From assembly GCA_006503475.1 (NCBI GenBank), contig RSEH01000005.1, positions 205,317 to 269,316 on the forward strand: a DNA stretch of 64,000 nucleotides. The letters are read 5' to 3'. Positions 6,798-50,204 of the stretch are shown here, piece after piece. Origin of the DNA: Stentor roeselii (lineage: Eukaryota; Ciliophora; Heterotrichea; Heterotrichida; Stentoridae). The notes beneath the pieces were generated by a model. That model was not told the DNA's origin and did no database searches. It worked only from the letters and a program-made list of their open reading frames with translations. The position numbers and the translations under genes were made by a program. How positions within the stretch are numbered: the stretch's first letter is position 1; every line of letters begins with the position of its first letter.

Positions 6798-7217
6798 ATG
6801 AACAAAACAAGGTTCAGAAAAAGAGCAAAAACCTGCGGTATCTGTATCAGTGAAGTAGAGTTCCAAGGCGAGCTCGACTGTTGCAAACACGTATTTTGTT
6901 TTGACTGTATAAAGCAATGGTCTAATGTACAATTCATGTAGGTAGAAAACAGTTGTCCCCTTTGTAAAATACGATTTGCTACAATTAAAATGATTCCTCA
7001 CAGAGTATTTTACGCTGACTCGAAAAAAATGCCAGAAACCCTACTCGTTGACAATAAAACTCAAAATATTGAGCTAGACTCTGAAAATTTTCATATATTT
7101 ATCGGAAATGCACAAAGACTCATTCAGGATGAGTTCCAGAGATTGATGAATGTTTTGTAAATTTTATGCAGGAATCAATATAACATGGACCTGAATTCTT
7201 TAAGTCTAGAAATTTAA
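6798..7217 (+). CDS. C3HC4 RING-finger protein (three exons, 15-nt introns)
   Basis: Visible only after splicing: exons 6798-6937, 6953-7156 and 7172-7217, giving 129 residues. Intron 1 (GTAGGTAGAAAACAG) carries an in-frame TAG and lies inside the zinc finger; intron 2 (GTAAATTTTATGCAG) hides the apparent TAA stop. The spliced protein has a complete RING: C13-G-I-C16, C29-x-H31, C34-x2-C37 and C48-P-L-C51, with W41 where RING fingers usually have Trp. The pattern DCCKHVFCFDCIKQW resembles PHRF1/SCAF-type RINGs. The likely role is a ubiquitin ligase; the target is unknown. The C-terminal 75 residues are not recognised. Intron 1 is near certain because it rebuilds the finger; intron 2 rests on its length, ends and A10. 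Confidence 0.85.
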
Positions 7218-7598
7218 TAGAATAATTATGACTTTCGATTGATTCTTCTTTTGATTCTCGTGTTTTGAATTTTGGAGGGCTTGGGGGGCTTGAAAATGAG
7301 ATTTTTTGGAATAGAATTTGGGTTAAAAGAGGAGCAGAATAAGGAAGGGTATTTTTTATAGTTACTTAGGATTTTTAGGGTTATTTGATTTAGGATAAAG
7401 GCTTCTTGATTTCAATAGATCGGTTTATTAAGGAAGTGCTTTTATTATTAATCGATTTATATCTGAATTTCATGATATGAAACAAAATTTTCGATCAGTA
7501 AAGTTATTTGAAGTTACTTCAAGGAAAGGAAACTTTTTGTAGCCAACTTGATGAATAAATTGAATAATATCGAAAAGCCTCAAATATAATAAACTCAA
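7218..7598. other. spacer, no gene seen
   Basis: G/T-rich to about 7420 (a G-run near 7270-7290), then AT-rich. No frame, tRNA or repeat seen. Confidence 0.6.
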
Positions 7599-8762
7599 AT
7601 GAACAGGGTAAAAATCACAAGTATCAGTCTAAACCCTTCAGAAAAACTAGAAGACTACAAAATATCCCTTGAATACGAAGGCCGAGAAGAGAAACTAAAC
7701 GACCCATCAGACTTTTCAATCCCAATAAGTCGTTCAATGCGTTTAATAATCCGTCACAAGCCATCAGAATATTACGAAAGCAGTCATCTCGACAGCAACT
7801 TAATTCTCACCAACCATTCTCTATCACTTCCACTATACAAATCTTCAAGACAAGGAAAAATCCAAGGAAAAGTCCAAGTTTCTTCATTTAACTTATCAGG
7901 CCAAACGACTTGCAACGGTTCAGACCTCTCAGATTCATGCAGCTTTAAAAGTTCTCCTTTCTCCTCATCTGTTGATGAAAGTCCTTCTAACAAAACCACG
8001 ATTTTACAACTCTCTGAAGCAATTAACTCAGAACTGAAAACTTCAGTCATCACCCTCAGACAACTGTTAGAAGTAGAAAAAAACGCAAAGGAAAACCTGG
8101 CTAAAGAGGTTCAAAGACTAAAAAATGAACAAATCATTCAAAAAGATGAACTTTTTAAAAGAGAGAAAAAAGTTTTAAGTGATTTGCAAAGTAATGAAGT
8201 AAGTTTATCTGAATTGAAATTTGAATTGTTGAAGATTAAAACGGAAAACAAAGCCTTGACTGCTGAAAACTCAAGAATTTCAGCGATTTTAAAGGAAAAA
8301 GAAAAGAATTTTGGAAAAAAATCTGAGGATTTGAATTTTCCTCAAGTTTTTGTTGGTTCTGCTGGATTTGTCCCTGCACAGATTGTGAATGACTTGGAAA
8401 AGAAAGAGATGATTATTCGAGAGTTGAGTAAAGAAGTGAATGAACTGAAACTGTTGAATAAATCAATTTTGTTAAACAGACAAATGCAAAAAAATAATGA
8501 TTTAGATGAACTTTTAAACCAAAAAATGAAGAACTTGAAAATGGAGAGCTTGATTACTAAGGATCCTGAACAGAGCTATTTTTGTAATGGTAAAAAAATT
8601 GTTTTAGTTGCGAGGGCTGGACATATTTTATGCAAGTATGGGAATAGTTTTAAAGGTTTTGATGATTACTTGAAGAGTATTGGAATTAATACTCGGAGTA
8701 TTTCGCATAAACGTATTAGGTCAGTCGATTTTCAGAATGAGTTGAATAAGATTTCTAATTAA
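7599..8762 (+). CDS. coiled-coil protein with divergent GAR (GAS2-related)-like C-terminus
   Basis: 387 residues in three parts: an N-terminal globular segment of about 110 residues with beta-like alternation (VKITSISLNPSEKLEDYKIS), a coiled coil from about 145 to 310, and a C-terminal block KKIVLVARAGHILCKYGNSF followed by KGFDDYLKSIG. That last block aligns by eye with the GAR core (R-V-L-R-x-H-x-M-V-R-V-G-G-G-W and a following acidic helix), though the triple Gly is degraded to YGNSF. The better preserved relative at 31108 has the same three-part order. GAR domains bind microtubules, so a link between microtubules or ciliary rootlets and another structure is plausible. Assignment of the GAR part is by analogy and moderate. 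Confidence 0.6.
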   Translation: MNRVKITSISLNPSEKLEDYKISLEYEGREEKLNDPSDFSIPISRSMRLIIRHKPSEYYESSHLDSNLILTNHSLSLPLYKSSRQGKIQGKVQVSSFNLSGQTTCNGSDLSDSCSFKSSPFSSSVDESPSNKTTILQLSEAINSELKTSVITLRQLLEVEKNAKENLAKEVQRLKNEQIIQKDELFKREKKVLSDLQSNEVSLSELKFELLKIKTENKALTAENSRISAILKEKEKNFGKKSEDLNFPQVFVGSAGFVPAQIVNDLEKKEMIIRELSKEVNELKLLNKSILLNRQMQKNNDLDELLNQKMKNLKMESLITKDPEQSYFCNGKKIVLVARAGHILCKYGNSFKGFDDYLKSIGINTRSISHKRIRSVDFQNELNKISN

Positions 8763-9132
8763 TAAAAGAGTAATGATGAGATATTTAATTAAGTTATATT
8801 TTTTGATTGAAGAATGAAATTTGTTTAAGATAAATATATTTAGAGAGAGGAATATGTTTGAAGAAGCAGAAGTATTTTAAATTATGAAAATTTTAGCTAA
8901 TATGTTTGTGAAGGTTATAGAATATCTGTAAAAATGTTAATTATTCATTTCTAGACTTTATGTTTGCAGAGAATCTATTGAATGATAATAAACTCTAGAA
9001 ATTCAAGAAGATACAACTATAATGAACTATTTAATCAAAAAAACTACAAGAAATTTTTAAATCTTCTATATAAAAAAAGATTATAAGACTCCAGCTAAAA
9101 AATATTGAATTAAAACTTAAGAAATCTATTTA
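8763..9132. other. convergent spacer, no gene seen
   Basis: Very AT-rich region between two genes that point toward each other. Nothing recognisable on either strand. Confidence 0.6.
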
Positions 9133-10740
9133 TTACGGCCTGATTTTACCTGTAGCAGGATTTCCAATCAATTTTTGTCTTTCAATTTCACTTTTAGCTA
9201 GTTTCACTCCTAACTCCTGTATCTTCTCATTTGCAACTTTTACCTTCTCTTTATACTCCCTTGCTTTTGACTTGAAAAATTGCACATTTCCTTCAGAGTG
9301 TTTTAATTTTTCTTCTAAATTCTTATAATCTGAATTTTCTCTTCCAAGAGCAGTGAACTTCTCATACTTCGTTTCAATTTGTTGAATTTTGCCGATGTAC
9401 CCTTCATTACTTTTAAGCACTTCATTGTACCTGCCAGTCAAATTCTTCATTTCATTCTGATATCTTTCAATTTCTTCAGCCTTTGCACTTAAGTTCTGCT
9501 TATAAATTTCAACTTCTTTGCTTAAAGACAAGTTTTTTGTTTCTAAGAGCTTCAAGTCTTCTTTCAAGTTACTCACTTCTTGTTTCTTTCTGTCAAGTTC
9601 GTATTTATTTTCTCTGTCAGCTGATTGGCTTTGACTTGTGGACTCTTTTAGTTTTCTTTCTAGCGAATCAATCGTTTTTATCATTTTTTCTCTTTCTTCT
9701 TTATCTTTTGAATACTTTTCTCGTTCATTTTTGGTGAATTCTTTTAGTTTGTTTTCTGATGCGAACTCTTTTTCGTGGATACGGTTTTGAAGAATGTTGA
9801 TTTCTTCTCTGAGTTGTTTTAGTTGGATCTCAGAGGTTTCTAAAGAGTTGCTGGTTGATTCGAGGTCTCTTTTGAGGTTTGAAATTTCTTGAGATTTGGA
9901 TTCTAAAGTCAATTTATATCTGTGAACCTGATCAGCCAAGTCCTTATTCGTAATCTCAAGTTTATCTCTATCAATACTAAAAATCCTAGCTCGATTCCTT
10001 TCATCTTCCAAATCCTTCAAATACTTTCCCTTAAGTTCATTTTTCTCAAATTTCACATTTTCAAGTTTTTTCCTCAAATCCTCAATTTCTTCAAAAGCCT
10101 TCTCATTTTTCAATTTCAATTCTTCCCTTTCCCTCTTAACAACTCTGATAGTCTCCTTATCTGCAGGGTCTTCCAATTTTTCATTTAAAATCTTGATCTG
10201 AGCAAACAAATGTCCAGTTTCATTCGCATATCTTTCTTTCATATCACGAACTTCCCTTTCAGCATCAGTTTTCAATCCATTAAGTTGAAGTTGGCTTAAA
10301 TCAAGTTTTCTTGTCAAGTCATAAATAGTTCCCTGAAGCCGAGCGATTTCATCTTCTTTTGCCTCGACCTGAATTTTCATCGGGCCTTCGATTTCATTGA
10401 CAAGTTTTACACGAAGCCATTCTGAGTCGATTGGAGGGATCATCTTGGTCTGCATTTCTTCGAAGTCACGTTTTCCTTGTTCTAAAGAGGCTTTGAGCTT
10501 TTGAACGTAAAGCTCGTAATAATTCTGAGTTTCTTTCAAGGATTTTAAAGCTTCTGCACACTTGATTTGAGACTCTTGGCATTCTTTCTTTGACCGCTCA
10601 TGATGCAGTTTTAAATTTTCTTGCATTACTTGAAGGGATTCGTTGTCGGACTTGTAACGTTCTAGGATATCGCGGGTTGAGGAAAGGGCTTTTCGAAGTT
10701 CAGCGATTTCGTCTAGAAGTGCATCATAGTTTCTTTCCAT
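9133..10740 (-). CDS. CEP83: CEP83-like centriolar distal appendage protein
   Basis: 535 residues, coiled coil over nearly the full length. Residues about 85-230 line up with the conserved part of human CEP83 as I remember it: FEEMQTKMIPPIDSEWLRVK (human: an L-x-E-M-K-L-Q-I-L-T-P block), EIEGPMKIQ, then repeated R-D-M-K-x-R-Y and KILNEKLEDPADKETIRVVK, followed by REREELKLK. CEP83 anchors basal bodies to the membrane, which fits an organism covered in cilia. Human CEP83 is about 700 residues, so this one is shorter at the C-terminus. It lies 42 bp behind the TPR gene on the same strand. Another coiled-coil centriolar protein is the alternative. Confidence 0.65.
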   Translation of the reverse strand: MERNYDALLDEIAELRKALSSTRDILERYKSDNESLQVMQENLKLHHERSKKECQESQIKCAEALKSLKETQNYYELYVQKLKASLEQGKRDFEEMQTKMIPPIDSEWLRVKLVNEIEGPMKIQVEAKEDEIARLQGTIYDLTRKLDLSQLQLNGLKTDAEREVRDMKERYANETGHLFAQIKILNEKLEDPADKETIRVVKREREELKLKNEKAFEEIEDLRKKLENVKFEKNELKGKYLKDLEDERNRARIFSIDRDKLEITNKDLADQVHRYKLTLESKSQEISNLKRDLESTSNSLETSEIQLKQLREEINILQNRIHEKEFASENKLKEFTKNEREKYSKDKEEREKMIKTIDSLERKLKESTSQSQSADRENKYELDRKKQEVSNLKEDLKLLETKNLSLSKEVEIYKQNLSAKAEEIERYQNEMKNLTGRYNEVLKSNEGYIGKIQQIETKYEKFTALGRENSDYKNLEEKLKHSEGNVQFFKSKAREYKEKVKVANEKIQELGVKLAKSEIERQKLIGNPATGKIRP

Positions 10741-10782
10741 GTTATTAAGATGTATTAGAGTTTTTATCTAATTATGAAATAA

Positions 10783-12876: not shown

Positions 12877-12886
12877 TGCTTATTGA

Positions 12887-13100
12887 TTTATTATTCGCCG
12901 AAAATTTAGGAAATATTTTTTTTAAGAAGTAAAAAATTGTCTATAAAAGAAGAGGATTTTAGAAAAGGTTTATATTTTCTTCACTTTTTCACAATTTATT
13001 ATTCGCCGAAAATTTAGGAAATATTTTTTAAGAAGTAAAAAATTTTCTATAAAAGAAGAGGATTTTAGAAAAGGTTTATATTTTCATCACTTTTTCACAA
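12887..13100. repeat. tandem duplication, 108 bp and 106 bp copies
   Basis: Copy 1 is 12887-12994 and copy 2 is 12995-13100. Both start TTTATTATTCGCCGAAAATT and end CACTTTTTCACAA. They differ by a T-run length and a few substitutions only, so the event is recent. The pair lies just upstream of the TPR gene start, and copy 2 contains the TGA stop of the next gene upstream (13095-13097). One copy therefore supplies a stop codon and 3' flank while both sit in the promoter of the downstream gene. Confidence 0.97.
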
Positions 13101-13892
13101 ATTAATTACACTTAAGTCCAAATTAGGGACTCTTGGGCTACTGTGGCATCCAGAATCTCTGGAGAACAGCCTGGAATACTTGGAAGTATAAAAAGAAGAG
13201 ATGTTTGATTCATTTTGTTTTAAACTTTGATGGAGTCTTCCAACAGACTGCTCCTGGACAGCCCTATCGATTCTTTTCCTGCTGTTCCTTACAGTTCCAG
13301 GAGGTTGATAAAGATACTTTCTGTATTTTTCCTTATCATTCAAATAACTGTTAACAACCATTTGGTTCCTTTCACATTTCAGTTCTCCATGATTCATATC
13401 AAAAGTATCGAAATCTTTGAAATATCTCGGCTTGGAACTGATATTATTCCTTTTTTGACTCGTTTTTTGCTTGTCTTGAAGTCTAAACTTCTTCGTGATT
13501 TCACTCAAGTCATCAGCTTGAGGGTCTTCAAGTTTTCTGTTCATTTGAATAAAATGATTCATCACAAATTTAGGTTCTTCATTATAATCCTTATGTCTTC
13601 CAAAAGGCATTTTCGGAAGTTTTACAATACAAGTATTCGAATTGACTTTATGCTCTGATTTCAAGATTAATGATAAATAATCAAGTTTCGGTTGAGACCT
13701 TTTCACTGATTTCGGTTCAGGTCTTTCTGTAGCCGCACCTCGCAAGGCTTCTTTTTCAAGTTTTTCAAGATTTGAAAGCTGAATAGTTTCATTCAGCATT
13801 CTTTTGTTAACAAGCGAGATCTTGTTAGTGAGTTGTTTAAACAATTTCTTATCAACTCTCGGTGGAGTAGAAGTCTCATCATTCGAATCCAT
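13095..13892 (-). CDS. basic protein, function unknown
   Basis: 265 residues, rich in Lys, Arg, Ser and Asn, mostly without predicted fold. It begins MDSNDETSTPPRVDKKLFKQ with a short helix (about 14-50) and ends SSPRVPNLDLSVINL followed by TGA. The stop falls inside copy 2 of the tandem duplication, and TGA as a terminator is one of the observations that support the standard code. It starts only 6 bp after the stop of the gene at 13899-16595, on the same strand. No family recognised. Confidence 0.65.
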   Translation of the reverse strand: MDSNDETSTPPRVDKKLFKQLTNKISLVNKRMLNETIQLSNLEKLEKEALRGAATERPEPKSVKRSQPKLDYLSLILKSEHKVNSNTCIVKLPKMPFGRHKDYNEEPKFVMNHFIQMNRKLEDPQADDLSEITKKFRLQDKQKTSQKRNNISSKPRYFKDFDTFDMNHGELKCERNQMVVNSYLNDKEKYRKYLYQPPGTVRNSRKRIDRAVQEQSVGRLHQSLKQNESNISSFYTSKYSRLFSRDSGCHSSPRVPNLDLSVINL

Positions 13893-13898
13893 TTTTCA

Positions 13899-16595: not shown

Positions 16596-16623
16596 CGAAT
16601 ATTATTTGAGAAAATTTAAAAGG

Positions 16624-16692
16624 TCTAAGGCCAGGAATCGAACCTGGTGAATAGCGGTGATCTTCTATCGCCGTGCGCCAACACACCTTAGA
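16624..16692 (-). tRNA. tRNA-like gene, short and irregular; isotype uncertain (GAA possible)
   Basis: Minus-strand 69-nt element. The acceptor stem TCTAAGG/CCTTAGA pairs over 7 bp and the T arm CCAGG-TTCGATT-CCTGG is perfect with a canonical B box. A T-run follows 4-5 nt downstream, as a Pol III terminator should. The middle is wrong for a normal tRNA: only about 36 nt separate position 9 from the T arm, the D stem is at most 3 bp and the best anticodon stem (GGCGA/TCACC) has one C-A mismatch. That fold would expose GAA (Phe), but position 33 would be A instead of the usual T. It may be a degenerate tRNA, a truncated tRNA or a tRNA-like RNA. Confidence 0.6.
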
Positions 16693-24146: not shown

Positions 24147-24809
24147 TTATCTATTTTTTATTCCCCCCTTCTTCTTGTCTTCTTCGCAGTCCTGACAAAA
24201 CCAAGATCCACTGGGTTGGGCAGTGAGTCCAGCGCATTCCATATGAAACCATCCTCTTTTGCACTAAATAAGACTTACCTTTGGCCCTTCACATTCAATC
24301 ATCTCGCCGTAGGACCCTTTGCCGCAGTAGCAGTAGACTTTGTTGTCTTCTCCTTGCATGTCATCTTGCATGTCGAGAGATTCCATGTAAATCCCGTAGT
24401 CTGACTCGAAGAGAGAATTGCTTTTGTCTAGTTTCACTTTTTTTAGGTTTCGCTCTTCGGCTGTTTCGAGATCGGCTGAAATGTCTTTCTTGTATGAGTC
24501 TAGGTCTTGCTTTAAACGAGATAGGTGAAATTCGACCATGTCTAACAATTGCTTTGCCACTGCGACTTTTTCTTCGGAAAAGTTTAAAGCTTTTTGGTGA
24601 CGGTCACGGATTAGTGAAAGAAGTTCAGAGTTTTCGAATATTCCTCCGGACTCTTTTTTTAGACTTGAGAAGTAGTCGGATGACATTGTTTGGGACTCAT
24701 CTGCCACTATCTTCGCTTTTTCATCAAGAAGTTTAAGAAGCTCAAGTGATCTACACACTTCCCCAGGCAGGTAGTTGACACTATTTACAAATTCTTCTAA
24801 AAAAGACAT
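24147..24809 (-). CDS. ING-family PHD-finger protein (spliced)
   Basis: Exons 24279-24809 and 24147-24263 (minus strand) give 215 residues. The 15-nt intron 24264-24278 (GTAAGTCTTATTTAG in sense) interrupts the PHD finger; splicing rebuilds it completely: C160-Y-C162 near the start, IECEGPKCKRGWFHMECAGL, and SWFCQDCEED. The N-terminal 110 residues (FVNSVNYLPGEVCRSLELLK onward) are the ING helical domain. ING proteins recruit histone acetyltransferase or deacetylase complexes to chromatin by reading H3K4me3; the PHD aromatic Tyr at the start of YCYCGKGSYGEMIECE is retained. Without splicing the finger would lack its last four ligands. Confidence 0.95.
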
Positions 24810-26437: not shown

Positions 26438-29185
26438 ATGAATAAATATGAGTTTACTATTAACTTTGTCAGGCTGCAGCTTGGAATTATTCTTGATAAA
26501 TCGATTTTTAGAGCTTCAATTTTTGGAGATATCTCGATTTCTAAACCTGAGAGTGAACCTATTTTGTATTTTACTTTGGACTCTCAAGGCCAAAGACTGG
26601 AAGTGCATTCAAACAGTATCCAAGAGGTAATCAGAGTAGAAGAAGAAGAAATTTACTACGTAATCCTCAAAAGAAGACCCACAATAAAATCAATAGAAGC
26701 ATCCAGAGACTTTTGGAACCAAGACATCTTAGAATTCGAAAACGAAGACCCTTATCTTTCCCTGATCCTTCCTCATTTCCTAGTAACTCGTTTAGAGTTC
26801 ACCGAAAGACCATCAGAATTTTTAAAATTTCTTCAAAAATCTCGAATTCCAATCTTCCTGGGTTTTTTCACAGACACCAACATGAAAGAATACCCGATCC
26901 GTTTAACCAGAAGGTTCTGGATGGTTCCCTGGGAGGTAAAATACGCGATTTTTATGCTTTTAACCAACCGAAAAATGACAATCGACGACCTGACCGAAGA
27001 TAACCTGAAACTCTTATCAAAAATCATCAACATCGAGAAACTTCTCGAAAATCTTTTCTATTCCTCGAAAAACTTCTCATTCGAGAACCTTCAAGAAACA
27101 GCTCACATGGACAGATACCGTGAAATAGTTCCAGGAGGTCATATAAGTGTCAGAAAGCTGCTCATAACACCCAGTTGCATTATTTTCATGCCTCACGAAA
27201 TTGATTTAGGCAACCGCGCAATCCGTGACAAAGACACAAATTTCTTCATTAGAGTAAATTTCGTTGATGAGTACAACGATCGCAGCACCTGGGACAGATG
27301 CCCTCGAGTTCTGGAAAGATTCAAAAAATTACTTCGAGGATTCGGGGTTCTTGGAAGGCATTTTGAATTTTTAGGATTTTCAAACTCGCAGATGAGAAAT
27401 CATTCTTGTTGGCTTGTAAACCCGAATATGGATTTTAATGGGGAAAGTTTGAGAGAGTCTTTTGGAAAGTTTGATAATATTACTTCGGTCTGCAAATATG
27501 CAAGTCGATTAGGACTTTGCTTTTCAGGGACTCATGGAACGATAAATATCAACCTTTTAAGAGTTTTTAAGATAGAAGATATAAAACACAACGGGTACAC
27601 CTTTAGTGACGGCATCGGGATAATAAGTGGAGATTTATTTGAGCAGGTGATACAATCGATTTATATAAAAGAAACCCAGAAAATATCAGCACTTCAAATA
27701 AGAATCTGTGGATGTAAAGGTGTTCTGGCAGTAGACCCTAATGTAGAGACAGGAATTTATGTAAGAGGCAGTATGAATAAGTTTCATTCAGAACACTCCA
27801 GACTTGAACTCTGTTCATACGCAGTGGCTCATCCAGGGTACTTAAACCGTCAAATCATCTTAATCTTAAACGGCTTAGGCATTCCCAACAAAGTCTTCCT
27901 CGACCTGCAACACGAGATGATAAACGAGATCCGCAGTACTCTGACCTCCGAAAAAGCCGCTTGCGAGTTACTAAAAAAGACTTACCCCAGTTACTACAAA
28001 GACATAATCTTCATGTTAGAACATGGAGTCTCTCTCACAGACGATGCTTATTTACGAGGAATGATTAACGCTTTTTTTTTATCAAATTTCAAACTCATCA
28101 AGTCCAAAGCCAGGATTTTCGCTCCTGACTCTAAACTTCTGATGGGCGTGCTTGATGAGTATGGTTGTCTTGAATATGGAGAGGTCTTCATACAGATCTC
28201 TGAGGATAGAGATTCCAAAGTGATCGAACATCGAATCGCTATTGGTAAGAATCCTTGTTACCACCCTGGAGACATCAGGGTGTTAAATGCGGTGTCTAGG
28301 CCACAGTTGATGCACTTGCACAATGTCGTCGTCTTTCCACAGAAAGGGCCCAGGCCGCATCCAAATGAATGCTCAGGCTCTGACCTTGACGGCGACCTTT
28401 ACTTCGTCACTTGGAACCCTTTGCTAATCCCAGAAGAAAGCAAAGATGCGATGAACTACATTTCACCCGCTGAACTAAACGACTCAAATCCAAGCATGGT
28501 CGAAAAAGTCATCGACTTTTTCGCTACTTTCATGGCAAGTGAAAATATCGGCAGAATTTCAAATGCACATTTAATCTGGGCTGATAGTAAAGGAATTTTC
28601 AGTGAAGAGGCCTTGGAACTTGCAAGGTTGACCTCTGTCGCTGTTGACTACCCGAAAACTGGAGTTCCTGCAGAGTTGCCGCAAAAGTTGAGGATTAACA
28701 GATGGCCGGATTTTATGGAGAAAAGTAATAAAATGAGTTATCCTTCTCAAGGGATTATTGGAGTGCTTTGGAGAGATTGTGTTTTGGAGGACTTTGATTA
28801 TCGGGTTAAGCATGAGATGGATAGGAAGAGACTTTTTAATGGATATGAAAAGTTTTTGTCGTTTGCTAAGGAACTTTACAGTTTTTATGTTAGTAAAATG
28901 CAGAAACTTGTGCATCAGTATGACTCTCAGAATGAACTTTTCTTGATCACTGGACAAACTGGTGAAAACTCTAGAAGGAAAATGAGGTATGATGATGATA
29001 TTCAGATACAGAACCTTGTTAGTTGTTATCGAGAAGAGGTTCTTAAAATGTTTTGCTTAAAATCGAATAGTTTAACTGAAAGAAGACAAATTGCCTCGGC
29101 AAGTTATTTCGTCGCTTATTCTAAGAAAAAGAAGACTTTTTTGTCATTTCCTTGGATTTTTCATGAATACCTAATAATTAACTAG
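26438..29185 (+). CDS. cellular RNA-dependent RNA polymerase (RDR/QDE-1 class)
   Basis: 915 residues. The catalytic signature is CSGSDLDGDLYFVTW with the metal-binding D649-L-D651-G-D653, preceded by the conserved block VVFPQKGPRPHPNECSG. Upstream motifs include YTFSDGIGIISGDL and ALQIRICGCKGVLAVDP, both typical of eukaryotic RdRPs. The C-terminal 250 residues are the usual helical lobe. Such enzymes make double-stranded RNA for Dicer; in ciliates they feed siRNA or scan-RNA pathways. The protein is intact and in the usual RDR size range. Starts 13 bp after the eEFSec stop, so its 5' leader must overlap that gene. Confidence 0.95.
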   Translation: MNKYEFTINFVRLQLGIILDKSIFRASIFGDISISKPESEPILYFTLDSQGQRLEVHSNSIQEVIRVEEEEIYYVILKRRPTIKSIEASRDFWNQDILEFENEDPYLSLILPHFLVTRLEFTERPSEFLKFLQKSRIPIFLGFFTDTNMKEYPIRLTRRFWMVPWEVKYAIFMLLTNRKMTIDDLTEDNLKLLSKIINIEKLLENLFYSSKNFSFENLQETAHMDRYREIVPGGHISVRKLLITPSCIIFMPHEIDLGNRAIRDKDTNFFIRVNFVDEYNDRSTWDRCPRVLERFKKLLRGFGVLGRHFEFLGFSNSQMRNHSCWLVNPNMDFNGESLRESFGKFDNITSVCKYASRLGLCFSGTHGTININLLRVFKIEDIKHNGYTFSDGIGIISGDLFEQVIQSIYIKETQKISALQIRICGCKGVLAVDPNVETGIYVRGSMNKFHSEHSRLELCSYAVAHPGYLNRQIILILNGLGIPNKVFLDLQHEMINEIRSTLTSEKAACELLKKTYPSYYKDIIFMLEHGVSLTDDAYLRGMINAFFLSNFKLIKSKARIFAPDSKLLMGVLDEYGCLEYGEVFIQISEDRDSKVIEHRIAIGKNPCYHPGDIRVLNAVSRPQLMHLHNVVVFPQKGPRPHPNECSGSDLDGDLYFVTWNPLLIPEESKDAMNYISPAELNDSNPSMVEKVIDFFATFMASENIGRISNAHLIWADSKGIFSEEALELARLTSVAVDYPKTGVPAELPQKLRINRWPDFMEKSNKMSYPSQGIIGVLWRDCVLEDFDYRVKHEMDRKRLFNGYEKFLSFAKELYSFYVSKMQKLVHQYDSQNELFLITGQTGENSRRKMRYDDDIQIQNLVSCYREEVLKMFCLKSNSLTERRQIASASYFVAYSKKKKTFLSFPWIFHEYLIIN

Positions 29186-35410: not shown

Positions 35411-36008
35411 ATGGAAAGTCCGAGATTTTATCACCAGTCAAACTCGCCGAGTTTTATTAGACTTCAACAACAGATTTATAGGAAAGAGGAAAGATCTTTA
35501 GGACTTTCGGATACTCCTCTTCGGCTTCGTTTTGAATCTTACTTCAAGGAAAAAGTAGAAAATTTTCAGGTGAGTCCCCAGCCTGCTCCTGAAATAACTT
35601 CACAGGTTGCTCAGGTGACTCCTCAAGTGACATTGAAGAGTACACCTCAGTTAAATTCTCAGATGACTCCTCGGATGATCCTCGGATGCTCCTCAGATGA
35701 CTCCTCTGAAGGTAAGAATTCCTACAATCAACGAGAGTTCAGTTCAGGAAGCAAGATCAGTTCATCTATTCACCCCCAGTCCTCTTCGAAGTCAAGAAAA
35801 AAAAACAGAGGACTTATACCGTTCGCGTATATCTGCAGCAACAAAGTCGAAAGACCTGCCAATTAATCCCAAGGGTGAAATCAAGTTATTTCCTTCAGTT
35901 TTTTACAATAAAAACCAGGACTTGATGAAAAGACTCAATCGTGATTTGAACACAAAAAGGATTATAAAAGGAAAAGGTTATGGAAAGTCTTATATATTTA
36001 ATGATTAA
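35411..36008 (+). pseudogene. hypothetical gene broken by a frame change in a 12-nt coding repeat
   Basis: The first frame runs from ATG 35411 to a stop at 35866; the biologically plausible C-terminus (KGEIKLFPSVFYNKNQDLMK, ending KGYGKSYIFND) is in another frame open from about 35679 to 36008. No 15- or 16-nt intron connects them. Instead, four units of a 12-nt repeat (35660-35705) change length: 12, 11, 11, 12. Two missing bases shift the frame exactly as needed. So either the copy here is frameshifted or the assembly lost two bases. If continuous, the product is about 198 residues with a Gln/Val/Thr/Pro repeat in the middle. The stop codon overlaps the stop of the convergent gene in one TTAA. 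Confidence 0.6.
35660..35705. repeat. 12-nt coding repeat with two 11-nt units
   Basis: Units: CAGATGACTCCT (35660-35671), CGGATGATCCT (35672-35682), CGGATGCTCCT (35683-35693), CAGATGACTCCT (35694-35705). The intact unit encodes Gln-Met-Thr-Pro. Looser relatives (CAGGTGACTCCT) lie just upstream. Confidence 0.9.
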
Positions 36009-39000: not shown

Positions 39001-41704
39001 GGTTTTTGGAAAATTTCACAGATTTCCAAATACTTTTCTGTAATATGTTAGGATTTTGATGAATTAAGAACACGTCATTAGAATTTTCAGAGACTTCGCA
39101 GTTGATAAAACTTAGCTGGTCTGAATTTTCGTTGTTAAAAAAAATGATTGGAGAATTTCGAAGTGATTTTTTATTCGATATGAAAGAGGACCTGATGAAA
39201 GTGACTTGGCCTTGAAGCATATTAAAATAAAAAATGCCTCGATCTAATTATTTCTTACAATTTGTGGAAATCATTGAAGTAATCAAACAATCTTCAAATT
39301 TCACTAATTTTAACGTAGTGTTTAAATCAGTAGAAAAAGACGAGGGACTTTTCGCAGACGCTAAACTGAAATTGCTTGATTTGAACACAATTTCTGAATC
39401 AAGTTTCTGAGACGATTTCAAAAAAACATCAACAGGACCGATTCCTGAATTATTCAGAAACGAGCACTGTTCGACTAAGAGTTTACTTGAATAGTTCAAA
39501 GGCTCAAGGGTGACGAGAGACTCGAGGCTTGTACTATGCTGAAAGACTGAAAATTTGATTAAAAGTTCAGAAGCTTTCACCTTGATCGCCGGTTGTTTGA
39601 GTTCCAAGAACTTTGAATTGTTTATCGTTAAATTCTGAGCATTTTCAGAGAATATCGAAGCGTTTTTATATGAAGTGTTGAAAAACAGAAAATTATTCAA
39701 TTGAACTGAATGTGAAGAACTCGCGTTGATGAAAGCTCCTGAAAGACCCCCACTGTTCTGTACTTCAATCTTCGAAAATTCGTGTAAGCCCTTCAGTGAG
39801 TAGATTTCAATTATCGAGTGCTCAAAGAAAGACTCATAAACCTGCACTTGTGTAACGAGAACATTTTCATTATTTTTAAAGTAAAAAAAACCAGGTAAAA
39901 AATTTGAACTGTAAAATTCTGGATCGAGTAGCGAGCTTTGAAGTTCTCCAAAAGTTTTAAAAATTGTGACATTTGAAATAAAAGTATCGAAATTTTCTTC
40001 AAGGTGAATCATTTTCAATGAGACTCTTGAGTTTGTAACATTGACTGAATTGATCTTTAGCTTTGGCCCGGCGCTGATGTATTTTTTTTTGCTGTTGAAA
40101 ACTACTTCTGCAGGTAAGGGAAAAATATCATAATTAGATACATTTATCAAGGCCTCAAAATTCATGTTTGACTCAACAAAGTGAATGTTTTGGATGAGAA
40201 TGTCGTTCATCAACATCTGTAGTTTTAAAAACAAAATGTTACTGTAAAACTCTGACTTGCTTAAATGAACTCCATCGATTAATGACTTTGACTTGTTGAT
40301 AGCTAAAAAGTTTGAAAGATGTTCTAATTTTACCACATTCATGTTGATCAAAGATGAGTTAGATACATGGATGCTTGAAACTGAAAACTGACTCAGTTTT
40401 TTTAAAAAAATCAAACTTAAATAGCCAGAGTTGTTTATTATTACTCGATTGAAAGTTATGTTCTCGATTAATGCATTTTCTATCATATTTAAAGATATTC
40501 CTTGAAAGATCACTGGATCAACGCACGGGTATCTGACAAAGTTACTGTTCTTTGAATTAATTTCATTGAAAACCACATTTTTAATGACTACTTTTGCAGT
40601 GTTGTAAGAAGTGCTGAATTTTTGTTCGATGTTATTGACGAACCTTTTTAATGTTTTAGCCTGAGGATCAGAAACAGAAAAAACATCTGCAAACATTTCA
40701 CAGTTATCAAAAGTGACATTCACCACTTCTACCCCACTTTGAGTAGCCTTCACAAAAGACCCGAAGTGTCCATATCTTCGAACATGAATCCCATGAAAGT
40801 GACTATTTTTCACATTAATCAAAGAAAAAATAACGAGACTATCTTTCGATGAGCAAAAGTCTCTATAGTCAAAAGAATTTATTTCATTCTCAGTCGCTAA
40901 CTCTCCATCAAAATTCCAGCAAAGTTCATCAGCACATTCCCAAGAAAACACAAACATGCAAATTTTCTTCTTGCAGTTCAATTCAAACATTTCCGAGCCA
41001 TCGAACTCAACATCAGAAACAGAAAAATACTTCAAGTTGCTCATTTCAAAAGCAGTCGAAATGCGATGAGTCCTGATTTCAGTTCGATCGCCAATCAAAG
41101 CAAGTCCCACATCAAAATCAAAGAAAACAGTTTGAGTGAGGTAATGAATTCCAGGTGACAAGTGAAGGAAGAAAAGGCCTTCAGAGTAAATACTGTTTAA
41201 AGCTTCGTCGATGGAGCCGAAGGGAGAAGTTTCAGAGCCATCTCCAGAAGAGTTCTGAGAAATGTACAGATGAAAGTCGCAGTCTCCCAGGTCCAGTTGG
41301 CACTCTTGAGTCAAGCAGTTCAAGTCGCAGAGCCCGTCGCCCAGTTGACTAGTTAAACACCCTTCCGAGCAATAAAACTCGCAGTCTCCGCCGTCGAAGC
41401 CGCAAGATTCTGTGTTGCACTCGAAGTCGCAGAAGCCGTCTCCGATAAAGCTTTCGTCACAGTTTTCGTTGCAGTTGTTGAAACAGTCGAGGTGGTCGTA
41501 AGAGCATTCTGAGGTGAAACATTGAGGCTCGCAATGGTTGTTGTTTAGAAGAATGTCGATGCAGCCTGGACTGCACCCGTTGCAGTCACCGAAGTCGTAA
41601 AATAAGTCCTTTCGGTTGCATTTTAAATCGCAGGTGCCATCTTGTCTACATTTTGAAGCTATGCTTGAGTTCGCAGAGTAAAGAGTTAAGAGGAAGAAAA
41701 TCAT
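36005..41704 (-). CDS. giant surface protein: LNR repeats, beta-helix, Cys-rich region, multi-pass membrane domain (spliced)
   Basis: Two long frames joined by a 15-nt intron at 39244-39258 (GTAAGAAATAATTAG in sense); exons 39259-41704 and 36005-39243 give 1,894 residues. N-terminus: signal peptide MIFFLLTLYSANSSIAS, four Lin12/Notch repeats (about 18-150, e.g. GDGFCDFECNTESCGFDGGD), then a long right-handed beta-helix with short I/F/N-rich rungs. After about 1,330 comes a Cys-rich module (CKVCENNTYSLN, CKACPGSAVCKGK, GTLCGSCLPGF), then about eight or nine hydrophobic segments and a short cytosolic tail. The plan is a known ciliate/oomycete receptor-like type, but LNRs at the front are notable. 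Likely a cell-surface or contractile-vacuole/vesicle membrane protein; ligand unknown. Confidence 0.88.
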
Positions 41705-41924
41705 TTATAAGGTTGATGCTAAATCTTTTTATATCTTGTTGAACTTCAAGTGAGGAATGATTTTTAGAAATTTGATAAAGACTAAAGTTTTTTTGTTTTT
41801 TGGATTTATTGAGTTTTGAGGTATTTCGGTTTTAATACTTTTGAAGTATTTGGTTTTAATAATTTGAGGTATTTTGGAGTTTATTGTTAACTTTTGGGAG
41901 TTAAGGGACTTACCTTATTTAATA

Positions 41925-42233
41925 CTAATAATCAAACACAAACTTTTTTAAAAAATAACTCGGAGATGTTGTATCAAGCTCCTTGATTCTGGAAAATGTT
42001 TTAGAAAGGTCTGGAAAATCTTCCGAGGTTTTATCACGGATCACTTTTTTTCTTTTCATATTTCTAAACTTGACTATGGCGAGAGGATAAGGCATTCTTA
42101 ACACAGCGATATTATTTTTCCTCTCAAGAGCAACTTCCTCACGTTTCTCTGATTTTCACTTACTATGTATATATATTCTATTTTTTGTTCCAATTGGAAA
42201 AACTGCAGTACTAGAGCTTCGGAACCTTTCCAT
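41925..42233 (-). CDS. 97-residue hypothetical protein (spliced)
   Basis: Found by joining exons 42164-42233 and 41925-42148 across a 15-nt intron at 42149-42163 (GTAAGTGAAAATCAG in sense, A at position 10). The protein starts MERFRSSSTAVFPIGTKNRI, has a helical, strongly basic middle (KKREEVALERKNNIAVLRMP) and ends SYFLKKFVFDY. Its ATG follows the TAA of the RAP-domain gene with no base between (TAAATG). No family recognised. Without the intron the first frame meets a TGA, so the splice is needed for any coding sense. Confidence 0.75.
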
Positions 42234-43283
42234 TTATTTGATTTTAAGTAATCTAAGTTTCTTTTTCAAGAAAATCATTTTTTCGGTTTGGTCAACAAAG
42301 CGATTCCACTCAACAAACGAAATACTTCCTATTCGAATTTTATTCTTTTTCAGTAAGTTTTGCTTGAGTTTGATAGAAGGAATAAGTGATTCATTATCAA
42401 GAGCTTCTTGTTTATCATGGTAATCATAGATCAGAAAGTGACTTGGCCCATACAAGTCAAATCCCAAGTTGAGATTCTTATTGTAAAAGTCAACAAGATA
42501 GGCATCACTGATGTTTACATTAGTCTCATAATCCATCATCGTCTTCAAAACAAAATCAACTTCTCTCTGCATTTTGTTAACCGAAAGTAACCCAATATTA
42601 ATTAAACTTGGTTTCGCTATATTCTGGGTAACTTTCGAAAGCGCGTCATCAATCATCAGCTCCAAAGCAACCAAGATAACATTTCCAACTCTTTGCAGGC
42701 CTTCCGTGGAGACCGCATATTTGATGATTCTGAGTTTTTCGATATCATTGAAGTGAGAACCAGTAGAAAAAGAAATAAGTTTTCTCCACAAAGGTTCATC
42801 ATATTTATTCAAACAACACAAATCAAACAAAGCCTGAACGAGCCACTCATCACTAGGAGGCTGCAATTTTTCAATAGAATTTAAAATCATATCAGTAGTA
42901 GTATCTCTAAAATAATAGTTGTTTATCGTCAGAATATTAAGCAGCATGAACCAAGACTCACTGGAGAGAAACCGAGCTGAATTCGGAATAGACCGGCATA
43001 ATTTCGTGGCAATTTGTTTGTTAATGCAATAGTTGGATTTCTGAAGCCAGTACACAATTTTAACGAAGTCATTAATCTCGAAATCATAGACATCAAGAGC
43101 CATTGAGTAGTCCAAATAAATCTCCTGCTCTAGCTCAGTCCTCAGACTAAGCTGCATCGATTTCGATTTTTGATAAGATTCCAGAGCGCTCGCTACCAGG
43201 TTCAGGTTTTTCGGCTCGGATTTCAAATCTTTGACCACTTCTCGGGCGAATCGAAGAAGCTCTTTCGTAGTACTGGCGAGCAT
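42234..43283 (-). CDS. RAP-domain protein (organellar RNA metabolism)
   Basis: 349 residues, all-helical repeats to about 265, then the RAP domain: LGFDLYGPSHFLIYDYHDKQ, then IKLKQNLLKKNKIRIGSISF and VEWNRFVDQTEKMIFLKKKL. The G-P-S-H-F pair and the terminal W-x4-K...YL-like end are typical. RAP proteins (FASTK-like, OPR-type) bind RNA in mitochondria or plastids; with no plastid here, a mitochondrial ribosome or RNA-processing role is expected. N-terminal targeting is plausible (basic, Ser/Thr start MLASTTKELLRFAREV). Starts 7 bp after the stop of the RRM gene. Confidence 0.8.
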   Translation of the reverse strand: MLASTTKELLRFAREVVKDLKSEPKNLNLVASALESYQKSKSMQLSLRTELEQEIYLDYSMALDVYDFEINDFVKIVYWLQKSNYCINKQIATKLCRSIPNSARFLSSESWFMLLNILTINNYYFRDTTTDMILNSIEKLQPPSDEWLVQALFDLCCLNKYDEPLWRKLISFSTGSHFNDIEKLRIIKYAVSTEGLQRVGNVILVALELMIDDALSKVTQNIAKPSLINIGLLSVNKMQREVDFVLKTMMDYETNVNISDAYLVDFYNKNLNLGFDLYGPSHFLIYDYHDKQEALDNESLIPSIKLKQNLLKKNKIRIGSISFVEWNRFVDQTEKMIFLKKKLRLLKIK

Positions 43284-43290
43284 TTTTATA

Positions 43291-44238
43291 TTACAAGGAT
43301 TTCAGGTTATTAGATTTAGAATATTGCAAAATCATCGGCTTTCCTTTCAAAGGGAATCCGAAAAACGTGGATTTTATCTTACTTGCTATTAAAGGAGAAC
43401 CTAAGTGGAGGAAACCTTGGCCTTTCAGTTTTCCTTCAAGCAGCTGAAGAGATAGAGACTCGCTTGGATAAACTTTTTGGAATAGGGCCAAAAGCTCGCT
43501 TTGTGTGCAGCTTTTTGGTAAATTGAATAAAAACAACGAAGCTGCCGGAGGCTCTTCTCGGCACTTTTGAAGAAGTTTCTCAGGAATGTTGTTTAAAGAG
43601 ATGCATTGAGATTTTATTTCCACTTCAGATAAGTATTCGTCGAATGAAATGTTGGAAAAGTCGACTGGACAATATTCAGTTTGAGGTTCATCGACGAAAA
43701 ACTCTCTGGGTCTTTTACATGGCAGGTCTTCAGATTTGCGCTTCAGTCCTTGCAAATACTCATTTTTTTTCAAATTTTCTCTGCAGAGGTCGGAGATATT
43801 CGCGAATTTTACGTTAATAACTGCCAAGTCTTCCAAAAGTGCGAGTTTATTTTTTTGGTTTAATCTTTTGTTTTCTTTTTGTTCTTTCATCTGCTTTTCT
43901 TTGAAATAATTGAGCATCTCTGATATCGCCTGTGTTGATAAAAGACTCAACTCGTCGTTTTCGAGGATTTGAGTTGTTTTGTTGCAGACGAAGTCCAGGA
44001 TTGTGTGGAATAAAAAGCTCGGCTTCGCCTTTTCTTCTTGGATTTCCTCTGCTTTTACAAATGGAGGAGGCAGCAGAAGTTCTTTCATCAGGTCGCAGGT
44101 TTTTTCGTAAAAGACTTGAACAGCCATCAAACTTTTGCTGATGTTTTGGACTGTTGCCCAGTTGGCTCTCGGGTACCCCATGAAAATAACTTTATTAAAT
44201 AAGTGACTTTTCACTGTGGAGCCAATGAAGAGATTCAT
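43291..44238 (-). CDS. RNPC3: RNPC3-like (U11/U12-65K) protein lacking the first RRM
   Basis: The frame is open from 44361, but that start would overlap the divergent gene and its first 41 residues lie in AT-rich spacer-like DNA, so I prefer Met at 44238 (315 residues). Two blocks match human RNPC3 as I remember it: YPRANWATVQNISKSLMAVQ-VFYEKTCDLMKELLLPPPF (human has ...A-S-V-P-K-F-Y-V-Q-V-L-H-L-M-N-K-M-N-L-P-T-P-F), and the C-terminal RRM ASLFLFNLPKSCTQSELLAL ... KLKGQGFLHL ... GFPLKGKPMILQYSK. That RRM contacts U12 and U6atac RNA in the minor spliceosome. The usual N-terminal RRM is not present upstream. U1A/U2B''-type RRM proteins are the main alternative. Confidence 0.6.
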   Translation of the reverse strand: MNLFIGSTVKSHLFNKVIFMGYPRANWATVQNISKSLMAVQVFYEKTCDLMKELLLPPPFVKAEEIQEEKAKPSFLFHTILDFVCNKTTQILENDELSLLSTQAISEMLNYFKEKQMKEQKENKRLNQKNKLALLEDLAVINVKFANISDLCRENLKKNEYLQGLKRKSEDLPCKRPREFFVDEPQTEYCPVDFSNISFDEYLSEVEIKSQCISLNNIPEKLLQKCREEPPAASLFLFNLPKSCTQSELLALFQKVYPSESLSLQLLEGKLKGQGFLHLGSPLIASKIKSTFFGFPLKGKPMILQYSKSNNLKSL

Positions 44239-44325
44239 GAAATTAGAAAAAATTAAAATTTGTTTCTTCCTTGTTTTTTGAGCTTTTCTACAAGATTCAC
44301 TTGTCTTAATGAAAATAATTTTTGA

Positions 44326-44859
44326 ATGTGGAGGCCTTTCACACTGAGTCTTGCAAGCCATTCTTATGAAAACTTCCTGAAAAAAATAGGAAGAGCTGAA
44401 AGTGCTCCATTGAAAAATCGAAAAGATCAGGACAAGTCCAAAGCGACTTCATGTGAAATTTTATCTGATGAGGCCAGACAGAGAATCACTGATTTTGAAA
44501 ATCTGAAGAAAAAGGTGAAGCTTCAAAGGGAAACCAGAAAACAACAGGAGATTTTAAAGATCAAACAAAAGGAGATACAAATCAAGGTCGACAGAGAAAA
44601 GCAGAAAAAAATGAAACTTAGAAGAATGGAAGATTTGAAAAGACTTAGAGCTTTTTCTAGCTGCAGACCAAATCGAGTCACTCCCAGCAAAGGAGTCTTT
44701 GCCATGACTTGTGTGGAAGACTGCAGAAAGCTGAATAAAGGAGATCTTATGAAAGAAATGAAGAGAATCAACAAGAACTATATCAACACTCTAAAGATTA
44801 ACTGGACAGACAATAAAGTGGGTCTTTATAAGGAAAGGAGAGGGAAAAGTAGTTTGTAA
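44326..44859 (+). CDS. small basic helical protein
   Basis: 177 residues. N-terminal MWRPFTLSLASHSYENFLKK, then a long, highly charged helix (about 50-110, FENLKKKVKLQRETRKQQEI) and a basic tail. The frame is better than the opposing one over the same bases, so the start at 44326 is kept and the opposing gene is trimmed. Convergent with the RING gene, 2 bp between stop codons. No family recognised. Confidence 0.65.
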   Translation: MWRPFTLSLASHSYENFLKKIGRAESAPLKNRKDQDKSKATSCEILSDEARQRITDFENLKKKVKLQRETRKQQEILKIKQKEIQIKVDREKQKKMKLRRMEDLKRLRAFSSCRPNRVTPSKGVFAMTCVEDCRKLNKGDLMKEMKRINKNYINTLKINWTDNKVGLYKERRGKSSL

Positions 44860-44861
44860 AA

Positions 44862-45632: not shown

Positions 45633-45882
45633 TATACTAATTAATATAAATATAGAAGAATAAAACTCATTGAAAACCTTGAATAATGATAATCTCTCGA
45701 TTTTTGGTAAAATAATTAGTTTTATTGAGTTTTTATGAATATGTTTAGATGCAAAGGAAAATTACTTTTGCTCAATTCCTTGTAATATAATCGATTAAAT
45801 ATGAATCTCAGAAATAAACTTCCCTCCAGATAAGACCTTTAAAATAAACCTCGTTAATTGATTAGTATATTAAAAAAACAAT

Positions 45883-46833: not shown

Positions 46834-46838
46834 TTATA
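46834..46838. promoter_or_regulatory. 5-bp gap between divergent start codons
   Basis: The sequence between the ATGs at 46831-46833 (minus) and 46839-46841 (plus) is TTATA. If both starts are right, each promoter and leader lies inside the other gene. Inferred from position only. Confidence 0.4.
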
Positions 46839-49800
46839 ATGATTTTTTCTAGTGACCCGAATAAGAAACGATCTGTGCTTAAAAGGGTCTTTTCTCAATC
46901 TAAATTCACTTTGCCGCCGATTAATCCGAAAACTGGATCACTTAGGACTTTTCTTAGTGTTGATGACTTTCGAAGAGCTACTGGATGTGGGGAGGACTTG
47001 AAGGAGATGAAGGAATTGAAAGATTTAAAAGAAGGGAAAATTGGGCAAGAGCCTTGTCGAAATAGGAAGCGGAAACTTTATTTAACGATGAATGAAGAAC
47101 TTAGCAGCAATGTTAATAAAGAGTCATCATTTAAGATGAGTGGTAGTGAAGATCAAAACGAATCCACTGACGAAAGGAAGACCTTACTCTATGATAAACA
47201 TCTAATAAACCGTCAAAAAGCTGCAGCAAACATCTGCAAACTGATAGTCGACGATGTTGCGAGTAAATTCTCTAAAAATCTTCCAGATGAAAGACCACTT
47301 CAAAAGTTGAGTAAAAGCGACAGATATGTGAAAGAACTAGTAGAAAAAACACAAGAAATCCCAGATTTCGCAGGAAAATTCGAACTAATAAGCGAAAGAT
47401 CTCAAGAAACATACCTAAAAACCTTTAAAAAAGCAGTCCAGACCAAAAAAATAGATCTGCGCTCAAGAGAAGCGGAAGAAAGAAACATGGAAGAAATAGT
47501 TCTTCACCGAATCAGCAAAAGTAAAGAAAAAAGCACGCGAGAAGAGCCGACTCAACAAGTGGCAGACTTAAAAAATCTCTTACCAGAAAAGCAAGATTTT
47601 TTCAATCATCACCGAACCGAATTTTCCTCAATTTTGCAGAACTTTCCTAAAATAGTTCAAATAGAGAAGCCGAGCAGTTACTATTCAGTCCTTCTACAAA
47701 AGATCGAACTATCATCTCCCAACGTTCCAAGGCACCTGCGGACCAGAAAGTTCATCATCAATTTTTCTCAAGACTGCATCAGTCTGCCGAACACCCGCCT
47801 TGACAGCAGCCTGGTGAACTACATAGTCTTGCACTTCAACTCATGGGAAACTCTCACAAAACTCGACCTGAGCTACAACAACATCGGCGACAAGTCAGTC
47901 GCTTTTCTTATCAGGGCTCTCGCAAGTTTCAGCTTAAGTTTAGAATATCTGGACTTGTCCTTCACTCAGAGCGCTTCGATGACTGCTGTGACTTTGCAGG
48001 AAACTCTTCAGTTTTCAACCTGCCAGGTCCAAAACTTGAAAGTCGAGGGGAATTTATTTAAAGATGAAGGGATTTGCTCAGTTATTTTAGGACTGTTGGG
48101 GAATAGTTCAGTGCAATACGTGAACATCGCAGATAATCAAATAGAAAGTCCTGGAGGCGTCGCAATTAGCAAGTTGGTGAGGATTAACAGAAGTTTGAAA
48201 GGACTCAACTGCTCGAAAAGTGAGATCTCAGGATCTGCTTTTAGAGAAATCTGCAGAAGTCTGATCATCAACCAGGACATCAGGAGCTTTTCTGCGAACA
48301 GCTGTAAACTGAATGACTCGGATGCGAAAGAAATGGGCCACATGATTAATAGAAATATGAAACTGCAGCAACTTTGTGTTATTCACAACAAGTTTTCCAG
48401 TAATGCGCTTCAGTGGTTTAAATACGGCCTGCATCGAAACCGAGGACTGGTCCACCTCGCTTTGAGCGGGAATAAAAAAATCACGCTTTCCTTGCTGGAG
48501 GAGCTGAAAAAAGACCTCACGGGTCATGATGTCGATATCGGAAAAGAGGACGATTTTTACAAAACAGCAGAAGGTAATAATTTATTATTATTAAAGTATT
48601 TTTCACTTTTCATGAACTTGAGTCTTCCTGATCACCACAGGTCCTGCTCGAATTTTTACTCTTGCAAGCAGGTCAACAAGCGACTTACTGAAGACATAAA
48701 AAATGCGAGTCTTCGACTAGTAAAAAGGGAAAATTCTCGCAAAAAGATTCTGATCGAATCCCAAACAATCGACAAAATCCGTTCGCCTCTTTTTTACATT
48801 TCAAAGGCGAGAAAACAATACATAAACAGCCAAAGCTTGTCCACAGCCTGCAGCAAGTCAGTGATAAATGCAAGTTTCTCCCAAAACAACTCAAAAATAC
48901 TTAAAAAGTTCTCAAATCAAGAGTCAACAAGTCAAGCTCAAAACATCTACTCAAACCCAGAAAACCTTCCCAACTGGCTTGTGCAACGAGTGGATTTCAA
49001 AGAAGTAGTCTTCAACCTGAACCAGAACAAAATTTACGTTCCGAGCATCTTCGAAGAACACGTCAATTCACGCACTTCAGAGCAGAAAAAAGTGCTCATC
49101 GAGTGGATCAGAAGTCTGAAGTTCTTCTCGAAAATTTCTTATAAAGTCATTCAAGACGTCTGTGATAAACTGAAAAAAGAAGAAGTCCCTTCTGGCACTG
49201 AAATCATTCGAAAAGGGGACAGAGGCGACTGCATTTTTATTATTTTCTCAGGAACTGCTGATATTTTTCTTGAACCGGGAGTACTTCACTGCAAAGTCGC
49301 TGAAAAAGAAGTGATCGGCGAACAGGCCTTGGACAATGCGAAGCCGAGAAACGCAACAGTTGTCGCGACCACTGACATGATTTTATTCAAGTTGGATAAA
49401 TTCGACTACGACACGATTTTACTGAACATCAAGAAGCAGGAAAAGTCAGAAAATCTTAAATTTTTAGAAAAAATCGAATTTTTCTGTGAGTGGTCGCATT
49501 TGAAAATGCAAAACTTCGTCTTCCACATCCTTCAAAAGACCTACTCAGAAGGAAAAATCATTTTTGACAGAGGAGACCCAGCTGATACCTTTTTCATCAT
49601 CAAGTCCGGAGAAGTCGAAATCCAGGCTTACGTTAAACTCGTCGAAAACAACTGCTGGCCTGTCGGGTGGAAAGAATGGAAAGTCACTGAAATAAAAAAA
49701 GAATGCATCGTCAGTCTCATCAGGCTCGGACCGGGAGACTTCTTCGGAGAGCCGTGTCTTTTATCAAAAACTCCAAGACTCACAAGAGCGATTTCTCTGA

Positions 49801-50204
49801 GTAACACCCTGCTGCTGACCATCAACAAAGACGAGTTTTTTTCGATATTTGGGAAAAAAGACATTAACAACTTGCTGGAGTCTTCGAAGTACCAGATCCC
49901 GAACCACGAGTCTTTGAGAAAAAAGCTGATATGTGAGTTGGAACAGAAGAAAAGCACCGTAAGTTTCAAGTAGCACCAGGCCTTGCTTTCAAGTTTGAAT
50001 GTGGACTACAAGTACTCCGAGTCGCGAGAGTCGTTACTCGATGAAAAGACCAAGAAAATGAAGAACTGGATACAAGGAATGAAAAAGCGAAAGAAACTCG
50101 AGGCTGAAAATTTTAAAAGACGAGTTGTCTCTGAACAGAAAAAGCGACTTGAAATCAGTTCAGTGAAGGACCTGCAGCATTACTTCAGGACTATGAATGA
50201 TTAG
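46839..50204 (+). CDS. LRR protein with two cyclic-nucleotide-binding domains (spliced)
   Basis: Two frames joined by the 15-nt intron at 49959-49973 (GTAAGTTTCAAGTAG); exons 46839-49958 and 49974-50204 give 1,116 residues. N-terminus basic and disordered to about 320; ribonuclease-inhibitor-type LRRs about 324-568 (LTKLDLSYNNIGD, LEYLDLSFTQSAS, VQYVNIADNQIES); two CNBDs about 768-870 and 893-1015. Each has G-E (IGEQAL; FFGEPCLL) and the phosphate-binding R (KPRNATVV; TPRLTRA). cAMP or cGMP binding is therefore likely. The C-terminal helix is coiled-coil-like. With SPAG17 13 bp downstream, an axonemal or ciliary role is a reasonable inference. Confidence 0.88.

Follow-up and report, generated by a model that had tools for sequence, protein, structure and literature searches.

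Fifteen-nucleotide introns with a near-invariant adenosine at position 10 in the ciliate Stentor roeselii

Short introns of heterotrichs and the Stentor roeselii window

Introns of heterotrich ciliates are described as about 95% 15 bp long, the remainder being 16 bp (PMC11441545). In the S. coeruleus report, 8806 introns are listed, of which 8173 are 15 nt and 633 are 16 nt; a putative branch-point A stands at position 10 in 8005 introns and at position 11 (A11) in 442 of the 16-nt ones, and a lariat ring of 10-11 nt with a 5-nt tail was proposed (PMC9505925). The same report describes conserved snRNA motifs and a branch region that is enriched in U and, in its account, has no strong consensus (PMC9505925). 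Slabodnick et al. 2017 are credited with suggesting the branch point (PMC10946202). A literature search, judged mostly on titles and the openings of abstracts, found no branch mapping in any heterotrich.

Here, we have analysed a stretch of 64,000 nt of the Stentor roeselii genome (the window; positions 205317-269316 of contig RSEH01000005.1, the end of the window being the end of the contig) and followed its introns through the 44.39-Mb assembly of 522 contigs. That 15-nt introns with an A at position 10 (A10) are real and strongly supported in Stentor is already published (PMC9505925). To this our study makes some useful additions, namely a test of the strictness of A10 that is free of annotation, a G-poor surround of A10, the apparent absence of a 16-nt class, and a probable correction of an intron boundary in a RING gene. 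As in the S. coeruleus report, the introns are 15 nt long, begin with GTA, end with AG and carry A10 in nearly all 15-nt cases, the genetic code is standard, conserved motifs occur in U1, U2 and U6, and the branch region that is U-enriched there is pyrimidine-leaning here (PMC9505925). Unlike there, the A+T content of the introns is about 69% (listed GTAA forms) against a published 75.63% (PMC9505925). Blepharisma stoltei resembles S. roeselii in that its introns are reported as predominantly 15 and 16 bp, and its somatic genome of 41 Mb can be counted as a further likeness to the 44.4-Mb assembly (PMC9942806). Loxodes magnus, of the sister group of heterotrichs, shares very short spliceosomal introns and differs in their mode, which is given as 17 bp with lengths below 16 bp described as negligible (PMC11441545).

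The last bases of the window (63926..64000, plus strand, at the contig end) are a telomere repeat with the 8-nt unit GGTGTTAG (equal to TGTTAGGG, CCCTAACA on the other strand). Stentor telomeres are of the CCCTAACA type. The telomere of B. stoltei is reported to be a permutation of this unit (PMC9942806). Among 35 long frames, five end in TGA, and the next in-frame stop follows within 10 codons in four of them and at 19 in the other; since further stops come so soon, TGA behaves as a stop, unlike in Blepharisma, where UGA is given as tryptophan (PMC9942806). The standard code and the telomere type fit a standard-code heterotrich. Searches of the window with Rfam and with ARAGORN (bacterial code) gave no matches.

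Candidate introns of the window and their genes

The earlier note had described six stretches of exactly 15 nt that begin with GTA, end with YAG and carry A10. All six are present letter for letter, three per strand, and five begin with GTAA as it said, the remaining one beginning with GTAG. Its statement that each restores a reading frame stands in that an in-frame stop is removed by every one of them (unspliced, the stops are TAG at offset 1 for the stretch starting at 6938, TAA at 1 for 7157, TAG at 12 for 24264, TAA at 8 for 39244, TGA at 5 for 42149 and TAG at 12 for 49959), but no frame is shifted, 15 being 5 x 3. Since such an intron shifts no frame, an unaided reader could hardly spot introns of another kind than those containing a stop; for the same reason, introns free of stops escape detection based on frames.

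Support is strong for three of the six. The intron GTAAGTCTTATTTAG (24264..24278, minus strand, phase 0) splits the PHD finger of an ING-like gene, and the spliced protein matches the Pfam families PHD-1st_NSD (7.5e-08) and ING (N-terminal; 7e-06), both over the cut-off, while PF00628 PHD (5e-05, 23.7 bits) falls just below its cut-off of 24. The intron GTAAGAAATAATTAG (39244..39258, minus strand, phase 1) removes a TAA and belongs to the strict frame-restoring set described below; it joins the frame at 39259-41704 with one ending at 36005 into a reading frame of about 1890 aa, the flanking open frames being 2446 nt and 3236 nt long, with LNR (Notch) domains in the first exon. The intron GTAAGTTTCAAGTAG (49959..49973, plus strand, phase 0) removes a TAG near the 3' end of a gene at 46839-50201 (plus strand) that encodes leucine-rich repeats and cyclic-nucleotide-binding domains; the open frames on its two sides are 3159 nt and 228 nt, with a 1040-codon frame before the intron.

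Support is moderate for the RING intron and for the intron GTAAATTTTATGCAG (7157..7171, plus strand, phase 2), which removes a TAA, is followed by an open frame of only 43 nt and would leave a last exon of about 14 codons. The candidate GTAAGTGAAAATCAG (42149..42163, minus strand, phase 1), which removes a TGA, is weakly supported: its frames are 70 nt and 221 nt, the resulting gene is 97 aa, and a Pfam search with this 97-aa product returned no family match. Codon usage of the small exons, this one included, was uninformative; with a score of about zero for even the PHD exon, the method has no power here.

The RING intron has two overlapping versions. The earlier note placed it at 6938..6952 (plus strand, GTAGGTAGAAAACAG); the letters are as claimed, and this version is probably not the one used. 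The other, GTACAATTCATGTAG at 6927..6941 (plus strand), also has 15 nt, A10 and GTA..YAG ends; it removes an in-frame TAG between open frames, and the RING finger is kept either way. For 6927-6941 against 6938-6952, the spliced proteins score 34.8 against 31.3 bits with zf-RING_2, 31.7 against 29.1 with zf-C3HC4 and 26.9 against 20.2 with zf-C3HC4_2 (Pfam), and several further RING models point in the same direction; zf-RING_UBOX (17.3 against 19.3) and zf-C3HC4_4 (10.8 against 12.2) point in the opposite one. Solved structures are mixed, the top match giving 32.1 against 30.8 bits, while RNF24 (26.3 against 28.0) and TRIM21 (6s53; 24.4 against 25.1) favour 6938-6952. The intron-profile scores are poor for both, with a small advantage for 6927-6941 (-1.5 against -2.4). 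As 6927-6941 scores above its rival on most Pfam RING models, the comparison of sequences suggests that the RING intron is probably 6927-6941. The claim that two of the six rebuild zinc fingers holds for the PHD finger, which 24264-24278 splits, and for a RING finger that is kept, the boundary of the latter being probably displaced.

Could these stretches be short germline-limited elements (IESs) remaining in the assembly? Ciliate genomes are described as carrying IESs, some of them intragenic (PMC9942806), but GTA..YAG ends and A10 are features of splice sites and here lie on the sense strand of genes, and a telomere at the contig end and long open frames are what is expected of a somatic genome. 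We regard this origin as scarcely credible.

Other features of the window were recorded in passing. The product of a single open frame at 26438-29185 (plus strand) matches PF05183 over profile positions 1-581 of 582 (2.3e-165) and is an RNA-dependent RNA polymerase, an enzyme linked to RNA silencing. Two minus-strand frames, 43291-44361 and 42234-43283 (RAP domain), are separated by 7 bp and would be joined by a 22-nt GT..AG stretch that lacks A at -6 (43273-43294, minus strand), so that they are either two close genes or one gene with an odd intron. A 106-bp unit occurs in two tandem copies at 12886-13104, mostly between two open frames.

Intron length and A10 across the genome

A at position -6 (counted back from the 3' end) is found in 1807 of the 6959 GTAA..YAG 16-mers of the whole genome, a background rate of 0.26. 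Six A10 out of six would have a chance probability of about 3e-4 for this named position and of about 0.003 for any of the nine free positions. Since the six had been chosen by eye, counts over the whole genome are the better test. We counted the pattern GTAA N(k) A NN YAG on both strands of the assembly and found 1826 matches (936+890) at 14 nt, 6239 (3103+3136) at 15 nt, 1807 (913+894) at 16 nt and 1813 (937+876) at 17 nt. The neighbouring lengths agree within about 1% and give a baseline of about 1815, so that the surplus at 15 nt is about 4424, or some 53 standard errors. The genome-wide enrichment of A10 at 15 nt, which the earlier note had proposed as a check, is thus found far beyond the six cases, and 15 nt is the dominant length class among those counted genome-wide (14 to 17 nt) and in the scan of 234 kb, which extended to 30 nt. 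A reversed-pattern control was dropped as a baseline in favour of the neighbouring lengths, GTAA and AATG being unequally frequent; it exceeded the pattern in every count but that of 15-nt GTAA forms with A10, where the pattern gave 6239 and the control 3924.

A10 is close to absolute in this surplus. When the base at -6 is C, G or T, there are 4980 matches (2476+2504) at 15 nt against 5152 (2531+2621) at 16 nt, a difference of -172 +/- 101; as 15-mers lacking A10 show no excess, nearly all of the surplus carries it. We estimate that GTAA introns without A10 make up at most about 2%, allowing for a possible mismatch of a few per cent between the 15- and 16-nt baselines, 15 being the one multiple of three among the lengths counted genome-wide. 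The shortfall itself, at 1.7 standard errors, may be noise or an effect of multiples of three on the baseline. Introns beginning with GTA and then C, G or T add a surplus of 732 +/- 90 (4409 with A at -6 at 15 nt against 3677 at 16 nt, this single neighbour serving as the baseline), so that GTAA accounts for about 86% and the other GTA forms for about 14% of the surplus. These figures suggest that the genome holds about 5150 GTA-type introns, or about 7 per 64 kb, consistent with the six reported in the window.

The counts also bear on whether the six are chance GT..AG strings that happen to lie at stop codons. About 1815 such strings are expected per genome, which is about 29% of the 15-nt GTAA A10 matches, and the candidate at 42149 is especially weak; but about 71% of the matches are excess, two of the six rebuild zinc fingers, and the predicted density of about 7 introns per 64 kb compares with 6 found. 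Chance as the source of the six is very improbable.

Unlike in S. coeruleus, a 16-nt class is not apparent: the excess of 16-nt GTAA forms with A11 is -12 +/- 52, against about 220 expected from the published 5% (PMC9505925). A single frame-restoring 16-nt candidate with A11 was found, GTAATTTATTAATCAG (7953-7968 of L017, minus strand), which joins frames of 1749 nt and 594 nt.

An independent check gave a consistent picture. In 233,717 bases (the window and L001-L017), we sought all GT..AG pieces of 11-30 nt whose removal would take out an in-frame stop and fuse open frames, demanding neither GTA, YAG nor A10. Under strict limits (at least 300 nt before, 150 after and 900 in all) there were nine pieces of 15 nt, all nine with A10 and GTA..YAG, and 0-3 at each of the 19 other lengths (19 in total, of which some have an end in common with a 15-nt piece). 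When 150 nt sufficed before as well as after the piece and the total stayed at 900, 13 were of 15 nt (A10 in 11) and the other lengths had 1 to 8; when the total was lowered to 400, there were 18 at 15 nt (A10 in 14, GTA..YAG in 14 of the 18) and 2 to 15 at the others. Since chance pieces accumulate as the limits loosen, the frame test is informative only when they are strict. An earlier scan of the window only, for GT..AG of 12-30 nt, had returned chance matches for the most part, and the stricter form in 234 kb was adopted for that reason.

When GTA..YAG was demanded and the limits were set at 60 nt per side and a total of 300 nt, 27 pieces of 15 nt were retained and 24 of them had A10, two being the overlapping versions of the RING intron; the three others are L004 plus 5620, L010 minus 864 and window plus 46164. 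The introns at 7157 (short after the intron) and 42149 (short on one side or in all) do not pass this filter. Because GTA and YAG are fixed in the genome-wide patterns, these ends were assessed within the 234 kb, where GTG, GTT and GTC forms showed no rise at 15 nt (23, 52 and 30 with A at -6).

The surroundings of A10 and the placement of the branch

To describe the bases around A10, we took 100 listed sequences of the 6239 15-nt A10 matches (the first in contig order), corrected them for 29% chance matches and used 50 listed 16-mers as background. After correction, among these 100, G drops to roughly zero at positions 7-9 and 11, and pyrimidines are raised at 7-9, the background being small; with 127 sample sequences as background instead, G comes to about 0 to 7% at the same four positions. 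The raw counts of G there are 28/400 against 50/200 (Fisher p about 2e-09, positions treated as independent), and positions 8 and 9 are both pyrimidines in 59 of the 100 A10 15-mers compared with 13 of 50 16-mers and 15 of 50 15-mers without A10. The 234-kb sample shows the same direction more weakly (10/140 against 79/508, p 0.009). Among 22 frame-restoring introns, G is present twice at position 7, once each at 8 and 9, and twice at 11. G around A10 is avoided, not forbidden.

The canonical snRNAs of the major spliceosome covered by our search, U1, U2 and U6, are present in the genome, each with at least one match over the family cut-off: U2 at 142.6 bits with GUAGUA intact, U6 at 97.1 bits with ACAGAGA intact and U1 at 84.9 bits with ACUUACCU intact. 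UACUA-A-C is the complement of the U2 GUAGUA. Agreement with it is not raised around A10, the mean being 1.74 of 6 in 100 A10 sites and 1.88 of 6 in 50 control 16-mers among the listed matches. That agreement stays flat although the U2 motif is intact, together with the avoidance of G, indicates that A10 is marked by its position and a G-poor surround and not by complementarity. The proposal that the branch is found by a ruler instead of consensus strength is thus borne out as regards UACUAAC, but the introns do keep their GTA and YAG ends and a weak G-poor, pyrimidine-leaning patch near A10. That the distance would be measured from the 3' end is what the published Stentor class of 16-nt introns with A11 points to, this class being the only discriminator between the two ends.

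The earlier note had further suggested a branch point at a fixed distance. A10 is near-absolute genome-wide, and its role in branching we infer from this invariance and from its position, of which the argument in the S. coeruleus report also appears to consist (PMC9505925). Could A10 instead form part of an extended signal at the 3' splice site (A N N Y A G), recognised by a protein or an snRNA, with the branch on another A or at a variable place? Invariance cannot separate the two, as an A needed by a reader of the 3' splice site would look identical, and alternative As are frequent at positions 3 and 4 and within 5-9. Yet among the free positions of the pattern the surplus sits on A10, lariat chemistry requires a branch, and A9 is no substitute for A10, occurring at about the chance level in 15-mers that lack A10 (1180/4980, 24%). 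We consider an extended signal of this kind unlikely.

We argue that, with high probability, these are ordinary U2-type heterotrich introns compressed to one length of 15 nt, in which A10 is most likely the branch adenosine and is placed mainly by geometry. The 5' end, GTA(A), would be read by U1 and then by U6. U2 would set A10 as the nucleophile, with YAG two bases further on, and the product would be a lariat ring of 10 nt with a 5-nt tail. Placement would be mainly geometric, with the branch A at position -6, and the weak G-poor surround may assist.

A stricter form of this reading is conceivable but rather doubtful: the genome may have just one intron length and an A10 that is essentially without exception (GTAA introns without A10 and 16-nt GTAA forms with A11 each at most about 2%), and the branch may be chosen by distance and avoidance of G around the A, with no contribution from complementarity to U2. 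If this were true, branch-point choice by geometry would be tighter in S. roeselii than in any other known case. More generally, introns of 15 nt test how the very large spliceosome fits two splice sites and a branch, and with a fixed A10 the position of the branch could be predicted for almost all introns and thereby tested directly.
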